This document shows positions 13,826-44,919 of a DNA stretch of 64,000 bases, in pieces. The notes under the pieces were generated by a model. It was not told the origin of the DNA and did no database searches. It saw nothing but the letters and a program-made list of their open reading frames with translations. Position numbers and translations under genes: made by a program. The stretch comes from Desulfovibrio sp. UCD-KL4C (GTDB lineage: Bacteria > Desulfobacterota > Desulfovibrionia > Desulfovibrionales > Desulfovibrionaceae). The stretch is taken from assembly GCF_006210265.1 (NCBI RefSeq), contig NZ_VCNC01000004.1, positions 310,001 through 374,000 on the forward strand, read 5' to 3'. Every line of letters starts with the position of its first letter. The stretch's first letter is position 1.

Positions 13826-16510
13826 TTAACCGCAGGTTGTGTAACCGCAGGCTTTACATATTTTGCATCCACCTTCAGGGACGTAGGCTTTTTTGCCGCA
13901 TTCAGGGCATGGGCTTCCAAGTTCTTTGGAAACTATGGTCTGATCGTCCATATCAAGTGATATGTAATTGCGCAGGATGCGTGAGATAATGGCCGCCGCA
14001 TCGATTATATTGTAGCTTGAACGGTCCAGCTGCGTGAGAATGCGGTCGATAGGCATGCCTACTCGAAGGAGGAGACTGGTTAAACGAGTGATTGTTTCCC
14101 ATAGAGAATATTTCTCCTGAAAAACCTGTTCATTATACATACCAGATCCGGTTAAGCCTGCTTCCTTTGGAAGTTTGACGAATATTTCAATCGGGTTGCC
14201 GGATTCATCCACGGAGACGATGATGTACATCTTGGACCCTTTCCATGTAACCCTATGGCGCTCTGCCCGTTCTATATCATTCAGCTCTCTCTCCCGTAAG
14301 GTTGCATTTTGTCCTATCATTGTGGGGTTGGCGTCTTGTGTATCTTCTTTTTTGCTTAAAACCCCTTTTTTACAACCGTTGCGGAAAACAGTCACTCCTT
14401 TAAGTCCGTGTCTCCATGCTTCAATGTAAATCTGGAAGATGGTTTCCCGTGGTGTATCTTCGGAAAGATTGATGGTCGAGGAAATAGAACTGTCTGTGAA
14501 TTTTTGAACAGCGGCCTGCAAGCGGATGCGGTCCATATAGTCAAGTTCGTCAGACTGAACGTAATTCAATTTTTCTTTAAGTTGCAGGGCTGTATATTTG
14601 TCGAACAACTCTTCCTGATCAGTTTCAAGCATCCATTTTAGCGGAGGCATATGGATGAACTCGAAAACTTTTCCAGCTTCAAGGCGGGTTTCGCGGGTGT
14701 AGCTAAAAAGAAACGCAGGTTCGATTCCTGATGTGCAGTTGTCAGACATGATGGAAATGGAGCCTGAAGGTCCGACGGTATTGAATGCCGTATGGCGCAG
14801 CCCATTATCCATAATCTTTTTCTGCAATTTTTTGGGCAGTCCAAGGTTGGTAATATACGGGCAGTTCAGAAAACGTTTTCTGGATTCAGGAGATTCTAGA
14901 GCTTCCACAACCCCGAAGCGTCCGGCTATGTCTGCGCTGACAGATATTTCGGTTATAGCTTTGTCGCGCAGAATCTTTTTGATGAAATCGATTGACTCTT
15001 CGCTGCCGTAGCGCATGCCGAGCATTGCAAGCATGTCGCCAAGTCCGGTGAATTCTATACCGATACGTTTACCGTACTTATCAGCATCCCTATGCTGTTG
15101 GAGAGGATGTTTGCTCTGGTTTAGATCGGACATTGTATCCATAAAGGCAACGGTGCGTCCTAAGTCATCGCGAAACAGGTCTTCATCAAACTGAGCTTCC
15201 TTCGTAAAGGGGTTAACTACATATTTGAATAGAACCATGGCTCCTAAGAGGCAGTTGTTCCAGTAGCCAAGTCCTTGTTCTCCGCACGGGTTGGTAGACA
15301 TAGGTTTTAGGCGCACAGGGTCAATGAATGTTCCGGGGGTATTGCGCTGAGTCGTATCCTGGTAAAGGATTCCCGGGTCTCCTGACTGCCATGCAGAACT
15401 GCTGATTTCTTCAAGTAATCCCCGTGCTTTGACAGTTGTATATGGCTTGAAAGGAAGTCCTAATTCCTGCCAGCGGCTGTAGTCTCCATCCCAGAGAAGA
15501 TTATAAACGGAGTTGACAGGGTCGAAGATATCTGACGTTTCGTTGCGACGTCTGGAAGGGGAAAATAAAAGTGTACCTTCAGGAAGGTTCGCCTGTTCCT
15601 CATTCATTGGTAGATCAGGTTTGACTTTTATCTGATACTTTTCCGGTTCAAGGGCTGTGACTTTATAAATGATCTCGGCCTCAAGGCGGTCTCCCACTTG
15701 AGGATCAAGAGCATTATAGACCTCAGGCAGCAATTGTAGCGTCGTTGCATCACATATCTTGCCTGTTACTTTGTTCATTTCAGGGAAAATAAATGTCCAG
15801 TCCGTATCGTCTTCTACAGCCTGCATAAACTCGTCAGTAATTTTGAGGCTTATATTGGCCCCGAATACATCCTGAGTTTTTCCTGTAAGGGAGTCCACTC
15901 CGAAAATTTCTTCAGGCTTACTTTTGCTCCAGATAAAGCGGCAGGTGTCAGGATGTCTTATATCCATTGATATCATGAGTGCGCCGCGTCTGCCGTTTTG
16001 GCCTATGGTGTTCGTAAGCTCACTGAAAAGAGGCATGAAGCTGACAGCTCCGGAGGAAGTGACCGCAGCATTATTCACAGGGTCGCCGGAAGGGCGCAAG
16101 ATGGTAATGTCTATTCCGCTACCGCCGCGGTAAGAATAAGTCCGTGCGAGTTTTTTCTGAGCTTCGAAGATGCCTTCCAAGGAGTCTGATTCGATTTTTG
16201 CTAAATAGCAGTTGCTGAGGGAGCATTTAGCATAGTCGTTGCCTAGGCCGGATAGAATTGATCCGGCAGGTATGAAGCGTCCTGCCTGAAGCATTTCGCA
16301 TACCTGTTCGTTTTCCTTATTTTCAAAGCTGGAGTGCTTTAAAAATTCACGGCAAAGCCTGTTTTTAACATCGCCAAAAGAGTGTTCCTGAAGGTGTCCC
16401 TTGCTGTCACGGATCTGATATTTTTTTGAGCTGACGGTTTCTTGAAAGCGTCTGTGCTCTTCTAAGGCCATTTTGGCGGATTCACGAGTGATAACTGGTT
16501 GTTTGGTCAT
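13826..16510 (-). CDS. nrdJ: Adenosylcobalamin-dependent (class II) ribonucleotide reductase
   Basis: An 894-residue protein of the NrdJ family, reducing ribonucleotides to deoxyribonucleotides with an AdoCbl radical. Visible blocks are KCSLSNCY (first redox Cys), TYSYRGGSGIDITILRPSG, MSTNPCGEQGLGYWNNC (catalytic Cys/Glu region) and AFNTVGPSGSISI. Near residues 750-850 is a TSCPD-like domain without the canonical cysteines, and the tail CPECGKKAYVPEGG...CKACGYTTCG combines a zinc ribbon with the terminal redox Cys pair. No NrdB-like partner is nearby, arguing against class I. An extra segment around residues 250-320 is longer than in short NrdJs. The ATG at 16510 has AAAGGA 13 nt upstream. 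A cobalamin riboswitch leader precedes it, which is unusual for a B12-dependent enzyme. Confidence 0.88.
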   Translation of the reverse strand: MTKQPVITRESAKMALEEHRRFQETVSSKKYQIRDSKGHLQEHSFGDVKNRLCREFLKHSSFENKENEQVCEMLQAGRFIPAGSILSGLGNDYAKCSLSNCYLAKIESDSLEGIFEAQKKLARTYSYRGGSGIDITILRPSGDPVNNAAVTSSGAVSFMPLFSELTNTIGQNGRRGALMISMDIRHPDTCRFIWSKSKPEEIFGVDSLTGKTQDVFGANISLKITDEFMQAVEDDTDWTFIFPEMNKVTGKICDATTLQLLPEVYNALDPQVGDRLEAEIIYKVTALEPEKYQIKVKPDLPMNEEQANLPEGTLLFSPSRRRNETSDIFDPVNSVYNLLWDGDYSRWQELGLPFKPYTTVKARGLLEEISSSAWQSGDPGILYQDTTQRNTPGTFIDPVRLKPMSTNPCGEQGLGYWNNCLLGAMVLFKYVVNPFTKEAQFDEDLFRDDLGRTVAFMDTMSDLNQSKHPLQQHRDADKYGKRIGIEFTGLGDMLAMLGMRYGSEESIDFIKKILRDKAITEISVSADIAGRFGVVEALESPESRKRFLNCPYITNLGLPKKLQKKIMDNGLRHTAFNTVGPSGSISIMSDNCTSGIEPAFLFSYTRETRLEAGKVFEFIHMPPLKWMLETDQEELFDKYTALQLKEKLNYVQSDELDYMDRIRLQAAVQKFTDSSISSTINLSEDTPRETIFQIYIEAWRHGLKGVTVFRNGCKKGVLSKKEDTQDANPTMIGQNATLRERELNDIERAERHRVTWKGSKMYIIVSVDESGNPIEIFVKLPKEAGLTGSGMYNEQVFQEKYSLWETITRLTSLLLRVGMPIDRILTQLDRSSYNIIDAAAIISRILRNYISLDMDDQTIVSKELGSPCPECGKKAYVPEGGCKICKACGYTTCG

Positions 16511-16755
16511 TATTATTCAAGGTCCTTTCAAGGGATTTTCCACGTGTTCCTTCACTCACAGAGCAAAACACTAGCAATATCGCAAACTGGAAGTTGCGGA
16601 CATGCAAGGTCCTCACATTGAGAAAAGGTATGAGCTTGTGGTGCAGGCAGCCCAGAAGGCATTCTCTGCAGAATTTTTGGGGCCGAATGACCTTTAATCG
16701 TCTTAAAAGATAGGTTCACTCGGTAAATGGAAAATATCTGCATCGTGCAGACATG
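16511..16755 (-). promoter_or_regulatory. Second structured leader domain of nrdJ, downstream of the B12 aptamer
   Basis: Read on the minus strand, this stretch has the same order of elements as the nrdD leader. Hairpin UCUGCA/UGCAGA (16737-16751) comes first. Stem B pairs CCGAGUGAACC (16713-16723) with GGUCAUUCGG (16683-16692) with one bulged A. Stem C pairs UGCAG with CUGCA (16666-16670 and 16642-16646). The block GCCTGCACCACAAGCTCA (16631-16648) matches nrdD at 17 of 18 positions. A CGCAA hairpin lies at 16581-16599, and CTAGTGTTTTGC (16563-16574) is identical in both. A final CCUUGAAAGG hairpin (16524-16533) covers the ribosome site. No terminator is seen, so control may be at translation. 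Confidence 0.7.
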
Positions 16756-16872
16756 CTTCAGGCAGGGGGCTGGCTTCTTTTATTCATAATGAATAAAAAT
16801 TACAGCGGCAGAACCGCCCCGGAATCTAACCGGGTTTCCTTTTCAAAATTTAGAAAAACTAAATTCCTGAAG
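16756..16872 (-). promoter_or_regulatory. Cobalamin riboswitch aptamer upstream of nrdJ
   Basis: A 117-nt element closed by P1 CUUCAGG (16866-16872) with CCUGAAG (16756-16762). The core CCCGGTTAGATTCCGGGGCG and GGTTCTGCCGCTGTAA match the conserved cobalamin-riboswitch core, and AAGCCAGCCCCCTGCC is the B12-box side. A variable A/T hairpin lies between. The same element, also 117 nt, precedes nrdD at 42481. Confidence 0.9.
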
Positions 16873-16891
16873 TGCAAAATCAACTTAGGGC

Positions 16892-16919
16892 AGTTTACCA
16901 AACCATCCTTTTTGGTCAA
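16892..16919 (-). promoter_or_regulatory. Putative sigma70 promoter of nrdJ
   Basis: On the minus strand, TTGACC (16914-16919) and TAAACT (16892-16897) are spaced by 16 bp. The same hexamers with the same spacing and a similar spacer (ending GGTTTG) lie upstream of the nrdD aptamer, which supports the call. The -10 lies in a GTTTG-TAAAC half-palindrome. Confidence 0.6.
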
Positions 16920-16995
16920 GACCTTTCTAGAGTTTTTCTTGACTAAACCTTGTCAGCCCTTGGGAGAGTAAGTGCGGTGTGTAGAGTGATGATAG

Positions 16996-17004
16996 TTATC
17001 CACA
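16996..17004 (+). promoter_or_regulatory. DnaA box upstream of nrdJ promoter
   Basis: TTATCCACA is the perfect E. coli-type DnaA 9-mer, about 77 bp upstream of the nrdJ -35. DnaA controls ribonucleotide reductase genes in E. coli. A looser DnaA box (TGTGGAAAA) lies upstream of nrdD. A single 9-mer can occur by chance. The surrounding gap (about 16920-17440) otherwise holds the aldA promoter and a palindrome; no gene is seen. Confidence 0.4.
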
Positions 17005-17298
17005 GGTGTGTGTATCTGTTCGTAACTATTTAACCAGCTGTTTTGTAAATAATTGTTGAGAATTGTGACTAGCGATCGATTGGTCTAAAATAGAGAAATT
17101 ATTTTCCCGATGAATTATAGTAATTCAAACTTCAACTCTTTTTTACTTTGTAAGCAGTTCAGAAAAGAAACCTCAATTTTATTTAGTTGAAATAGATATT
17201 TTTTTGTTGTGCCGTTTGCCTAGTATAATCTTTAAACTTCTCTCGCCATTAATCCATGTTGTAAAGATTCTTCAGGAAAACTTCTGTTTATCAATAGT

Positions 17299-42277: not shown

Positions 42278-42349
42278 ATTCTTTAAAGTTGTTATAAATT
42301 ATCTCATGAAAACAGATTGTTAAAAAGTTATGAACAAGAAATGAACAAT

Positions 42350-42358
42350 TGTGGAAAA
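42350..42358 (-). promoter_or_regulatory. DnaA box upstream of nrdD
   Basis: TGTGGAAAA, the complement of TTTTCCACA, fits the consensus TTWTNCACA. It lies 76 bp before the nrdD -35. Noted because nrdJ also has one; a chance match is possible. Confidence 0.3.
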
Positions 42359-42433
42359 TTGATGTTCCTTTTCTTTTCATCCTTACTCTCGCAAGGGATT
42401 TCAGAAAACTTTCATGAAAATGTCTAGAAGTTC

Positions 42434-42461
42434 TTGACCCAAAGCTGAGGTTTGATAAACT
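42434..42461 (+). promoter_or_regulatory. Putative sigma70 promoter of nrdD
   Basis: TTGACC (42434-42439) and TAAACT (42456-42461), 16-bp spacer, identical hexamers and spacing to nrdJ. The -10 overlaps the near-palindrome GTTTGATAAAC. Confidence 0.6.
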
Positions 42462-42480
42462 CTCCTGAGTCGTTTTTGAA

Positions 42481-42597
42481 CTTCAGTTGTCTGTATATTT
42501 CAGACAATTTCAGGAGACCCGGTTAGAATCCGGGGCGGTTCTGCCACTGTAAAATTTCTTCGTTAAGAAGAAATGAAAGCCAGCATCCTGACTGAAG
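42481..42597 (+). promoter_or_regulatory. Cobalamin riboswitch aptamer upstream of nrdD
   Basis: 117 nt closed by CUUCAG (42481-42486) with CUGAAG (42592-42597). A TTGTCTG/CAGACAA hairpin comes first. The conserved core CCCGGTTAGAATCCGGGGCG and GGTTCTGCCACTGTAA follows, then a variable TTTCTTC/GAAGAAA hairpin and AAGCCAGCATCCTG. Repression of a B12-independent enzyme when B12 is plentiful is the known logic for such switches. Confidence 0.92.
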
Positions 42598-42828
42598 CCT
42601 GCCTGCCTCTTGCAGGTATTTATTCCATTTTCCGGAGAGCCAATAAAACTTACGGCTTCCGGTCTAAAGTCTTGCAGGACCAGCCTTCCGGGTAGCCTGC
42701 GCCACAAGCTCAGATCATGATCTCCATACGGGGGCCTAGTAAGAGTGCAACTTTTCAGTTGCTCAGCTTCTAGTGTTTTGCCTTGTGGATGATGTTCTGT
42801 GCGGACAACCCCTTAACAGGTAATATTG
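42598..42828 (+). promoter_or_regulatory. Second structured leader domain of nrdD, downstream of the B12 aptamer
   Basis: It has the same order as in the nrdJ leader. Hairpin CCTGC/GCAGG is at 42602-42616. Stem B pairs CCGGAGAGCC (42632-42641) with GGCTTCCGG (42654-42662), with one bulged A. Stem C pairs GCAGG (42674-42678) with CCTGC (42696-42700). The block GCCTGCGCCACAAGCTCA is at 42695-42712, hairpin GCAAC/GTTGC at 42747-42762, and CTAGTGTTTTGC at 42770-42781. CCACAAG (42702-42708) can pair with CTTGTGG (42782-42788). The ribosome site lies in CCCCTTAACAGG just before the ATG. Confidence 0.7.
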
Positions 42829-44919
42829 ATGCCAAAACAAATTTTGAAACGTGACGGTAGACTAGAATCATGGTCAACAACCAGAATCTCTGAAGCAATT
42901 TTCAAAGCACTTAAAGCCAGCGGGATAAAAGACCCACTTTTAGGCAAGCGTCTGGGTAAAAAGGTTGAGCATAAACTAGCGGAGTATGACGTTCCTGAGC
43001 AGGAAACAGTTCAGGATATGGTTCAGCTTGTCCTTATGGAGAGCCGCCTCTATTCCGTTGCAGAGCGTTACATTATATATCGTGAAAAAAGACGTGAACT
43101 TCGTAAACAGGATGAAACATATCTGGATATTACCGGAACTATTGAAAGTTATCTGGACCGTTCGGACTGGCGCGTAAATGAAAATTCCAATATGGGCCAT
43201 TCTTTTCAGGGACTTATGCTGCATATGTCAGGAGCTGTTCAGGCTCGTTACTGCCTTGAAAAGTATCCTGAAGAAATCAGACTTGCTCATGAACATGGTT
43301 ACTTTCATATCCACGATCTTTCTTTCGGACTTGCAGGATATTGCGCAGGTTGGTCACTTCGCGATTTATTGATCGAAGGGTTCGGTCTGCGCGGACGTTG
43401 TTCATCTTCTCCGGCTAAGCATTTTGATTCTGTTACCGGACAGATGGTAAATTTTCTTGGAACATTGCAGAATGAATGGGCTGGAGCACAGGCTTTTAAC
43501 AACGTAGATACATATCTCGCTCCTTTCGTCAGACATGACGGCCTCGATTATACCCGTGTTAAGCAGATTGTTCAGAAGTTGATATTTAATTTGAATACCA
43601 CCTCTCGCTGGGGTGGACAGAGTCCTTTCACCAACTTCACTTTTGATATGGTTCCTCCTAAGCACATTGCCAGCGAGCCTGTAATTATCGGCGGAGAGTT
43701 TCAGGATACAACTTACGGTGAATATGCTGCTGAAATGGAAATGATTAATAAAGCGTTTGTAGAAGTCATGCTCGAAGGAGACTCTGACGGACGTATTTTC
43801 TCCTTTCCGATTCCTACTTACAACGTAACTCCTGATTTCCCTTGGGAAACTGAAGTCGGTGAACTGCTTCTAGAAATGACAGCCAAATACGGTGCACCAT
43901 ATTTCCAGAATTTCATCAATTCCGACATGAATCCGGAAGATGTTCGCTCCATGTGCTGCCGTCTTCAGATGGATGTCAGAGAAATCCGCAAAAAAACAGG
44001 TGGCCTTTTTGGAGCAGGTGATCTGACCGGTTCTATAGGGGTTGTTACTCTTAACCTGCCTAAGCTTGCTTACCTTGCTCAGGGTGAAGAAGACTTTCTT
44101 GATCTCGTTTCTGAGTATGCGACCCTTGCCAAGGATTCTTTGGAGTTCAAACGCAAGCTGGTTTCAGCTAACTTTGAAAGCGGTATGTTCCCGTTCTCAC
44201 AGTATTACTTGAAAAACGGGTTTAAGGGACACTTCAGCACCATTGGTTTGATCGGTGGTAACGAAGCATGTCATAATATACTTGGTAAAGGTATCGAAAC
44301 TGAAGCTGGAACCAGATTAATGCAGCGTGTTCTTAATCATTTGCGTGATCTAGTTGTTAGATTTCAGGAAGAAACAGATAATCTATACAATCTTGAAGCC
44401 ACTCCAGGTGAAGGTACATGTTATCGTTTGGCTAAGATTGATAAGAATCTCTACGCGGATATTTATACCGCAGGTGATGATGTTCCTTACTACACAAACT
44501 CTACTCTGCTGCCTGCCGGAGCTACGGAAGATGTTGTTTATGCTCTTGAACATCAGAACAAATTGCAGACACTTTATAATGGCGGAACCGTTTTCCATAC
44601 TTTCCTCGGTGAAGCTGTTTCAGATACCAAGGCACTGCGTAATTTTATAATCAAGGCTATGACCAATACTAAGATCCCATACATCTCAGTAACTCCCACT
44701 TTTTCAATCTGCGAAGATCATGGTTATCTGTATGGGGAGCATTTTGAATGCCCTACCTGCGGTAAGGACGCGGAAGTTTATACTCGTATTGTAGGCTACT
44801 ATCGCCCTGTTAATCGCTGGAATAAAGGTAAGCAGGAAGAATACAAAGAAAGGGCTGAATATGGTCATTCTTCGTGTGGGTGCAGTGCTCCCGGCGGAGT
44901 AGTTGTAGAATCCTTATAA
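42829..44919 (+). CDS. nrdD: Anaerobic (class III) ribonucleoside-triphosphate reductase
   Basis: A 696-residue glycyl-radical enzyme. Residues 1-90 are an ATP-cone (ILKRDGRLESWSTTRISEAIFKALK). The catalytic barrel follows, with HIHDLSFGLAGYCAGWSLRDLL, FNLNTTSRWGGQSPFTNFTFDM and IPTYNVTPDFPW. The zinc region has FSICEDHGYLYG and FECPTCGKDAEVYTRIVGYYRPVNRW, where the radical Gly lies in RIVGYY. It makes dNTPs without oxygen or B12 and needs the NrdG activase, which is not encoded here. ATG 42829 is preferred to the TTG codon before it. The leader carries a cobalamin riboswitch and the second conserved domain. Confidence 0.93.
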   Translation: MPKQILKRDGRLESWSTTRISEAIFKALKASGIKDPLLGKRLGKKVEHKLAEYDVPEQETVQDMVQLVLMESRLYSVAERYIIYREKRRELRKQDETYLDITGTIESYLDRSDWRVNENSNMGHSFQGLMLHMSGAVQARYCLEKYPEEIRLAHEHGYFHIHDLSFGLAGYCAGWSLRDLLIEGFGLRGRCSSSPAKHFDSVTGQMVNFLGTLQNEWAGAQAFNNVDTYLAPFVRHDGLDYTRVKQIVQKLIFNLNTTSRWGGQSPFTNFTFDMVPPKHIASEPVIIGGEFQDTTYGEYAAEMEMINKAFVEVMLEGDSDGRIFSFPIPTYNVTPDFPWETEVGELLLEMTAKYGAPYFQNFINSDMNPEDVRSMCCRLQMDVREIRKKTGGLFGAGDLTGSIGVVTLNLPKLAYLAQGEEDFLDLVSEYATLAKDSLEFKRKLVSANFESGMFPFSQYYLKNGFKGHFSTIGLIGGNEACHNILGKGIETEAGTRLMQRVLNHLRDLVVRFQEETDNLYNLEATPGEGTCYRLAKIDKNLYADIYTAGDDVPYYTNSTLLPAGATEDVVYALEHQNKLQTLYNGGTVFHTFLGEAVSDTKALRNFIIKAMTNTKIPYISVTPTFSICEDHGYLYGEHFECPTCGKDAEVYTRIVGYYRPVNRWNKGKQEEYKERAEYGHSSCGCSAPGGVVVESL

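Follow-up and report, generated by a model that had tools for sequence, protein, structure and literature searches.

The window analyzed here, a stretch of 64,000 nt (positions 310001-374000 of contig C4 in the source genome, G000), holds two ribonucleotide reductase (RNR) genes that lie 26 kb apart on opposite strands. They were named by protein family search as nrdJ and nrdD. The top NCBIfam match of the nrdJ product, TIGR02504, scores 389.8 bits and thus falls slightly below its cut-off of 399.95; the nrdD product exceeds the cut-offs of both TIGR02487 and NF006126. Each gene is preceded by a corrinoid aptamer that exceeds the gathering score of RF00174 (31.5); a fast Rfam scan of the whole window missed the one before nrdD. 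The genes and the parts of their leaders, 5' to 3', are as follows.

16892..16919, minus: sigma-70-like promoter candidate TTGACC-16-TAAACT immediately upstream of the nrdJ aptamer (consensus scan)
16744..16885, minus: nrdJ cobalamin (corrinoid) aptamer, L5 loop UUCUG (RF00174, 42.6 bits)
16737..16751, minus: nrdJ hairpin A (UCUGCA/UGCAGA), candidate P13, L13 = CAGA (sequence; 4-bp complement to L5)
16683..16723, minus: nrdJ stem B, with bulged A (sequence)
16643..16669, minus: nrdJ hairpin PC (GCAG...CUGC), inner GCC/GGC (structure alignment)
16653-16657, minus: nrdJ PC tip UUCUG (LB)
16625..16635, minus: nrdJ P3 5' strand
16612..16622, minus: nrdJ hairpin D (CUCA/UGAG)
16582..16597, minus: nrdJ hairpin E (GCAA...UUGC)
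16542..16552, minus: nrdJ P3 3' strand
16523..16528, minus: nrdJ ribosome-binding site AAAGGA (sequence)
13826-16510, minus: nrdJ, class II (B12-dependent) ribonucleotide reductase
42434..42461, plus: sigma-70-like promoter candidate TTGACC-16-TAAACT before the nrdD aptamer, hexamers the same as for nrdJ (consensus scan)
42467..42610, plus: nrdD cobalamin (corrinoid) aptamer, L5 loop UUCUG (RF00174, 32.8 bits)
42602..42616, plus: nrdD hairpin A (CCUGC/GCAGG), candidate P13, L13 = CAGG
42632..42662, plus: nrdD stem B, with bulged A (sequence)
42669..42672, plus: nrdD P1 5' strand GUCU (elsewhere in the genus, nrdD leaders have GUCC)
42674..42700, plus: nrdD hairpin PC (GCAGG...CCUGC), inner GCC/GGU
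42686-42690, plus: nrdD PC tip UUCCG (LB)
42708..42718, plus: nrdD P3 5' strand
42722..42734, plus: nrdD hairpin D (CUCC/GGGG)
42747..42762, plus: nrdD hairpin E (GCAACU/AGUUGC)
42792..42802, plus: nrdD P3 3' strand
42803..42806, plus: nrdD P1 3' strand GGAC, 10 nt ahead of the ribosome-binding site
42817..42821, plus: nrdD ribosome-binding site CAGGU (sequence)
42829-44919, plus: nrdD, class III (oxygen-sensitive, B12-independent) ribonucleotide reductase, ATG at 42829

In the nrdJ leader the 3' end of the RF00174 model overlaps hairpin A, and P1 is degenerate. A sequence-only reading of this DNA had described one series of hairpins behind the B12 aptamer in both leaders, and direct inspection finds that series over about 230-245 nt. 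The base changes that it reported also lie at the positions listed above: the first hairpin covaries (UCUGCA/UGCAGA in nrdJ, CCUGC/GCAGG in nrdD), and stem B is CCGAGUGA(A)CC/GGUCAUUCGG in nrdJ and CCGGAG(A)GCC/GGCUUCCGG in nrdD, with pairing and bulged A kept. The unpaired blocks GCCTGCRCCACAAGCTCA and CTAGTGTTTTGC are identical between the two window leaders, as had been noted, but they are not universal in the genus, where GCCTGCRCCACAAGCTCA is exact in 7/28 leaders and CTAGTGTTTTGC in 3/28. GCCTGCRCCACAAGCTCA has one exact copy in each window leader and no third site in the genome at up to two mismatches. A search with an 18-base block alone was set aside; the block was too short and gave many chance matches outside the genus.

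The domain in the genus and its counterpart in the family

A covariance-model search, as the sequence-only reading had proposed, recovered 28 copies of the domain spread over all 17 genus genomes searched, with compensatory changes in the stems. The model (R1) was built from nine leaders and returned 36 matches, of which 28 at E < 0.01 were kept and eight at E 0.255-0.924 dropped. The 28, which include the window pair, amount to at least one copy per genome, with 12 before nrdJ and 16 before nrdD. The L5 signature of the aptamer precedes the domain in 28/28 leaders, among them L095, L097, and L098, where Rfam did not call the aptamer; RF00174 reached gathering in 14/14 leaders of one set and 10/14 of another. 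Most of these homologues lack the exact unpaired blocks, one of two losses that the sequence-only reading would have counted against the domain, yet the pairing, the other, is kept. Four nrdJ leaders (L109, L117, L118, and L119) have one or two tRNA genes upstream of the aptamer, and in L120 (G099) the nrdJ aptamer's own variable hairpin holds GCCTTCCGGGC, the PC tip plus inner helix word.

Beyond the genus, R1 with stricter filters gave ten weak matches (E 0.0017-0.08) among 149 genomes of the family, none of them adjoining nrdJ or nrdD. With the model rebuilt from the 28 copies (R2), a search of 297 genomes of the order recovered all 17 of the genus plus four weak matches elsewhere (E 0.001-0.0095), and one of 395 genomes of the phylum recovered G000 alone. 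No strong copy of the domain without an aptamer was found in these family, order, and phylum sets. Three more Cobalamin riboswitches occur in G000 (C1:541075-541287, C1:1342889-1343088, and C2:109466-109653), ahead of genes that we named by reading the sequence as metE-like and, for two, cobaltochelatase-like; the domain is absent behind all three, so a platform common to all B12 riboswitches of the genome was rejected. A further search listed 69 loci, of which L133-L135 were inspected. In L135, from a MAG titled Desulfoplanes, an nrdJ 84% identical to that of the window follows a short leader without the domain, which is B12-like by eye and has no RF00174 call at gathering.

In the genus, the domain runs from hairpin A through stem B, P1 (GUCC/GGAC), and PC to P3, which encloses hairpins D and E. 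PC has the form GCRG(G)...CYGC, encloses an inner GCC/GGC helix, and carries the tip UNCYG; P3 and then P1 close immediately before the ribosome-binding site. In a structure-fitted alignment of the 28 leaders, which leans towards its own structure and whose shuffles leave relatedness in, 87.7% of 764 cells are paired (75.3% shuffled), double changes occur at 23/30 pairs and in 95 cells (34.2 shuffled), and covariation is 0.324 (0.149 when shuffled; no more than 0.097 when slid). The excess is smaller in a MAFFT alignment of the first nine leaders, which is not fitted to the structure: 85.5% of cells are paired vs. 81.5% shuffled (0/500), covariation is 0.169 vs. 0.123 (2/500), double-change pairs number 7 vs. 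4.2 (20/500), and further pair types 17 vs. 14.7 (63/500). The two kinds of leader have PC in common and differ at P1. PC is complete in 16/16 nrdD and 10/12 nrdJ leaders and its inner helix in 16/16 and 12/12, whereas P1 is complete in 16/16 nrdD leaders and 1/12 nrdJ leaders. P3 is imperfect, its outer part being paired in 93/108 cells for nrdD and 53/80 for nrdJ.

Compared with shuffles, fold energies gave no uniform picture: an nrdJ leader folds no better (z = -0.60), and two leaders of nrdD reach z = -3.04 and -3.95. The region of the ribosome site is predicted to be more open than the leader average in 16/16 nrdD and some nrdJ leaders. A pairing proposed by RNAalifold between the 3' half of hairpin D and CUAGUGUUUU was mostly G-U and was set aside, and no upstream ORF is conserved in position across the 28 leaders. 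In each window leader, a terminator scan picked out hairpin A and the U-rich tail behind it, a weak pattern, and it gave several matches in L104; L099, L102, L107, and L114 have no U-rich tail. Since several relatives thus lack such a tail, termination is the less likely output.

Family members outside the genus also carry B12 aptamers before nrdD. RF00174 was detected in 17 of 20 such loci, which were taken from among the best-scoring non-genus matches rather than drawn at random, and in these 17 the distance from the end of the aptamer into the first codons is 141-231 nt. Common to eight of the 17 are a hairpin A containing CGCGGA, a long hairpin (P-B) whose tip is similar to UNCYG, and a helix P-C just ahead of the ribosome site. 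In a MAFFT alignment, 89.0% of cells in these family-type pairs are paired (82.8 shuffled) and double-change cells number 11 (4.0 shuffled), with no excess in pair types (12 vs. 11.5). A covariance model from the eight loci (R3), run on 247 family genomes, matched 29 places in 28 genomes; 28 places in 27 genomes, the founding eight included, lie before nrdD, and L268 (E 0.003), which has no nrdD behind it, was dropped. One genome of another genus (G138) has two nrdD genes (L255 and L269), each with a family-type leader, and another genome has, besides the one before nrdD, a Cobalamin riboswitch downstream of this gene (L073:3858-4064).

R3 has no match in the genus studied here (best 12.3 bits, E 0.99), and the genus and family models fail to find one another. 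From the gene served, the position, the order of parts, and the tip, we infer that the two platforms share an origin. At all 28 nrdD-linked R3 loci, L5 is UCCCG and hairpin A contains CGCGGA, which can pair with this L5 if one C is bulged out; a bulged L13 has been described for another corrinoid riboswitch (PMC10653944). These traits of the family hairpin A fit P13/L13 of corrinoid riboswitches. The tip of P-B was scored in two ways: with the letters C-[CUA]-G assumed, the tip is UNCYG in 25/28, UUCAG in 2, and CUCUG in 1, and with the best stem alone it is UNCYG in 22/28. At nine further loci beyond the reach of R3, a UNCYG tip is found in 4/9.

Origin of the paired leaders and the reductase inventory

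The sequence-only reading had held that shared ancestry could not explain the likeness of the two leaders, a claim that the alignments contradict. The alignable part of the window leaders starts about 180 nt before the aptamer and ends at the start codon, so the likeness reaches past the downstream domain to the upstream region, the promoter, and the aptamer. A tree computed from a MAFFT alignment of all 28 leaders, with a midpoint root for display only, groups those of nrdJ (12) into a single clade (100/99 support), apart from the 16 of nrdD. Because the upstream region and aptamer align and the nrdJ leaders are a single clade, the sequences indicate that one leader was duplicated and that the nrdJ copies are of single origin. 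Most simply, copying would have run from nrdD to nrdJ, since B12 aptamers are common before nrdD in the family; at 20 nrdJ loci of other genera, which cover the leader only in part, no RF00174 match was found. In the nearest species, nrdJ leaders can still be aligned with nrdD leaders over their full length, and distant nrdJ leaders have lost P1 and much of P3. The gene itself was possibly acquired from outside, to judge from its sequence. Against class II enzymes from other genera of the family, from Bacteroidales, and from Micrarchaeota, the identity of NrdJ is mostly near 30%.

No class I RNR was found in the 17 genus genomes, in which TIGR02506 picks up NrdJ alone and below cut-off. NrdJ is present in 12 of the 17, and nrdD with the domain leader in 16, the exception being G104, whose assembly is 84% complete. 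Fourteen genomes have a second nrdD (73-74% identity) that shows no domain match, and no GCCRCTGT-type aptamer string lies within 800 nt upstream of it in any of the 14. All five genomes that lack nrdJ possess this second gene, which is missing from G000, from G074, and, apart from fragments, from G007. In these three genomes, every RNR gene found sits behind a B12 aptamer and the domain, and full shut-off of both genes by B12 would stop dNTP synthesis. It is thus unlikely that both leaders are plain B12 OFF switches, as they govern the only RNRs found in the three genomes. Either B12 switches nrdJ on, or a second signal is sensed, or the switches are leaky. The nrdJ and nrdD leaders may respond to B12 in opposite directions.

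A probable extended expression platform and its rivals

We consider it reasonably probable that the domain is a genus-specific, long expression platform of the corrinoid riboswitch that controls nrdD in the family, and that one such leader was later placed before nrdJ. In the genus (28 copies) as in the family (28 nrdD-linked copies), the stretch follows a B12 aptamer, as judged by the L5 signature and in part by Rfam, and ends near the ribosome-binding site. Three features make an extended platform the best reading: this coupling with the aptamer, the presence of an L13-like hairpin, and an end at the ribosome site. Hairpin A would be P13, and its CRG (L13) would form a kissing interaction with aptamer L5 once a corrinoid is bound; the remaining platform would relay the L5-L13 state to ribosome access. 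The nrdJ and nrdD copies would give different outputs, since aptamer and PC are common to both and P1, beside the ribosome-binding site, differs.

The sequence-only reading had left two possibilities, a second sensor or a shared expression platform of unusual length. Of these, the platform is the better supported; most likely, the stretch is an unusually large switching part of the B12 sensor, with a second sensor as the less probable case. A second, novel aptamer in tandem with B12, for example for a nucleotide or deoxynucleotide, with P1, PC, and P3 forming a three-way junction beside the ribosome-binding site that is read jointly with B12, is in our view unlikely. It would account for an aptamer-like architecture of closing helix, junction, and hairpin with conserved tip, in which P1 is complete in every nrdD leader, and for the confinement of the 28 copies to RNR genes; a dNTP input would be sensible, as these are the only RNR leaders found in the genome. 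Leaders in which an AdoCbl aptamer comes first and further structured RNA follows (AdoCbl/c-di-GMP-I and AdoCbl/T box) are described in PMC9481103, but what follows the B12 aptamer in the nrdJ and nrdD leaders matches no known aptamer, and any ligand of it would be hypothetical. Such a sensor is harder to reconcile with the lack of any strong copy without a B12 aptamer, the restriction to one genus, the incomplete P1 of 11/12 nrdJ leaders, and a junction-strand block that is exact in 7/28. Rfam points the same way. The comparison suggested by the sequence-only reading found no family that fits the stretch behind the aptamer: in Rfam 15, scanned at gathering and at E up to 5, each leader gave, besides Cobalamin, only chance matches far below gathering (E 0.94-4.3), none of which counts as a second described aptamer family.

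A leader whose PC tip and P1/P3 junction bind an RNA-binding protein or keep the ribosome site open, independently of any ligand, seems improbable to us. Its appeal lies in the U-N-C-Y-G tip of PC (27/28) and the open ribosome site predicted for all 16 nrdD leaders, yet strict linkage to a B12 aptamer would be unexpected. GGA is a feature of CsrA-type sites, and in the 5' part of PC it is present in 15/16 nrdD but 2/12 nrdJ leaders, which speaks against this reading. The likeness might also be a mere relic of leader duplication, the region behind hairpin A doing little; this would suit the single duplication, the end-to-end alignment of the nearest species' leaders, and the distant nrdJ leaders without P1 and much of P3. 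We regard it as very improbable in view of the 95 double-change cells against 34.2 shuffled, and of a PC that is complete in 26/28 leaders, and an inner PC in 28/28, though the flanks diverge. Against the platform reading, a stretch so conserved would also fit a further function.

How the platform might switch can be approached through L5 and its possible partners. In the genus, L5 is UNCYG in 28/28 leaders, with no loop letters assumed, and is mostly UUCUG; the PC tip is UNCYG in 27/28 (alignment columns 27-31), the exception being UUCAG. The tip thus resembles L5, and a tentative, on balance doubtful proposal is that the platform carries a copy of this loop (LB) as a decoy, such that L13 would pair with LB without B12 and with L5 in its presence, and that opposite wiring through P1 after the duplication would let B12 repress nrdD and activate nrdJ. 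At least 4 bp to L5 are available behind the aptamer in 22/28 leaders vs. 9.1/28 shuffled (maximum 16, 1000 shuffles), a weak control, since a CUGC/GCAG hairpin carries the complement; in L105, L108, and some others, the region was cut behind this hairpin. The genus L13 sits in the 3' strand of hairpin A and not clearly in a loop. Covariation gives the L5-based decoy no support, as L5 varies little and swapping partners between species was neutral, across the 28 leaders, for both L5:PC and PC:ribosome-site pairing.

Other pairings were considered and rejected. The 3' strand of stem B can form 6 bp with PC GGGCCG in several leaders by eye. In the swap test, values as low were reached in 15/2000 for all 28 leaders, 2/2000 for nrdJ, and 1513/2000 for nrdD; the signal probably reflects relatedness, because the nrdD test was negative. 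Among the anti-Shine-Dalgarno candidates picked by eye (PC 3' strand, P3 5' strand, and PC tip), none was consistent over species, and the swap test was neutral.

Relation to known riboswitches

The leaders resemble the corrinoid riboswitches with an L5-L13 kissing loop that are described in PMC10653944 (RF00174), in that an aptamer above gathering is directly followed by a hairpin holding a candidate complement of L5 and then by a B12-related gene. They differ from that type in the long structured stretch, with 234-252 nt between aptamer end and gene in nine genus leaders; in an L5 that is mostly UUCUG rather than UCCCG; in the second UNCYG loop of the platform; and in that one copy precedes a B12-dependent enzyme. 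The same work reports an activating corrinoid riboswitch, that of cobT, in which P13 is the antiterminator of an intrinsic terminator. By analogy, this would be a precedent for the corrinoid activation that B12-dependent nrdJ would need, but the nrdJ and nrdD leaders show no convincing terminator. Several modes of coupling corrinoid binding to a gene likely await discovery, according to that source (PMC10653944). A uORF-coupled B12 riboswitch, as in PMC11260477, would call for a short leader ORF kept at one position; the 28 leaders studied here have none.

The closest described case is Desulfovibrio vulgaris, of the same bacterial group, in which a B12 element likewise precedes the class III genes nrdDG and was proposed to mediate repression of the B12-independent isozyme by B12 (PMC545781). 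The available text of that report does not mention a conserved downstream domain, and it treats nrdJ as the alternative enzyme, not as a target of a B12 riboswitch. Our searches of the open-access literature turned up neither the domain nor an nrdJ leader that combines a B12 riboswitch with a platform of this kind. The 2'-dG riboswitch has a purine-type aptamer and is linked to RNR genes. It offers a parallel for RNA leader control tied to deoxynucleotide supply; unlike it, the nrdJ/nrdD domain has no Rfam match. A 2'-dG riboswitch is the topic of PMC8872408.

The two leaders form a natural pair, derived from one duplication, on the B12-dependent and B12-independent enzymes of the same reaction. 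They offer a direct test bed for one aptamer wired to two outputs, in three genomes in which no other RNR was found. A second ligand, if true, would be a new tie between dNTP supply and RNA control. Aligned AT-rich blocks lie upstream of both promoters (16990-17060, minus strand, and 42297-42360, plus strand), reading AAAACAG..TTAAA..GTTA.GAACA and then ..TGTGGA; these could be sites for NrdR or another regulator.
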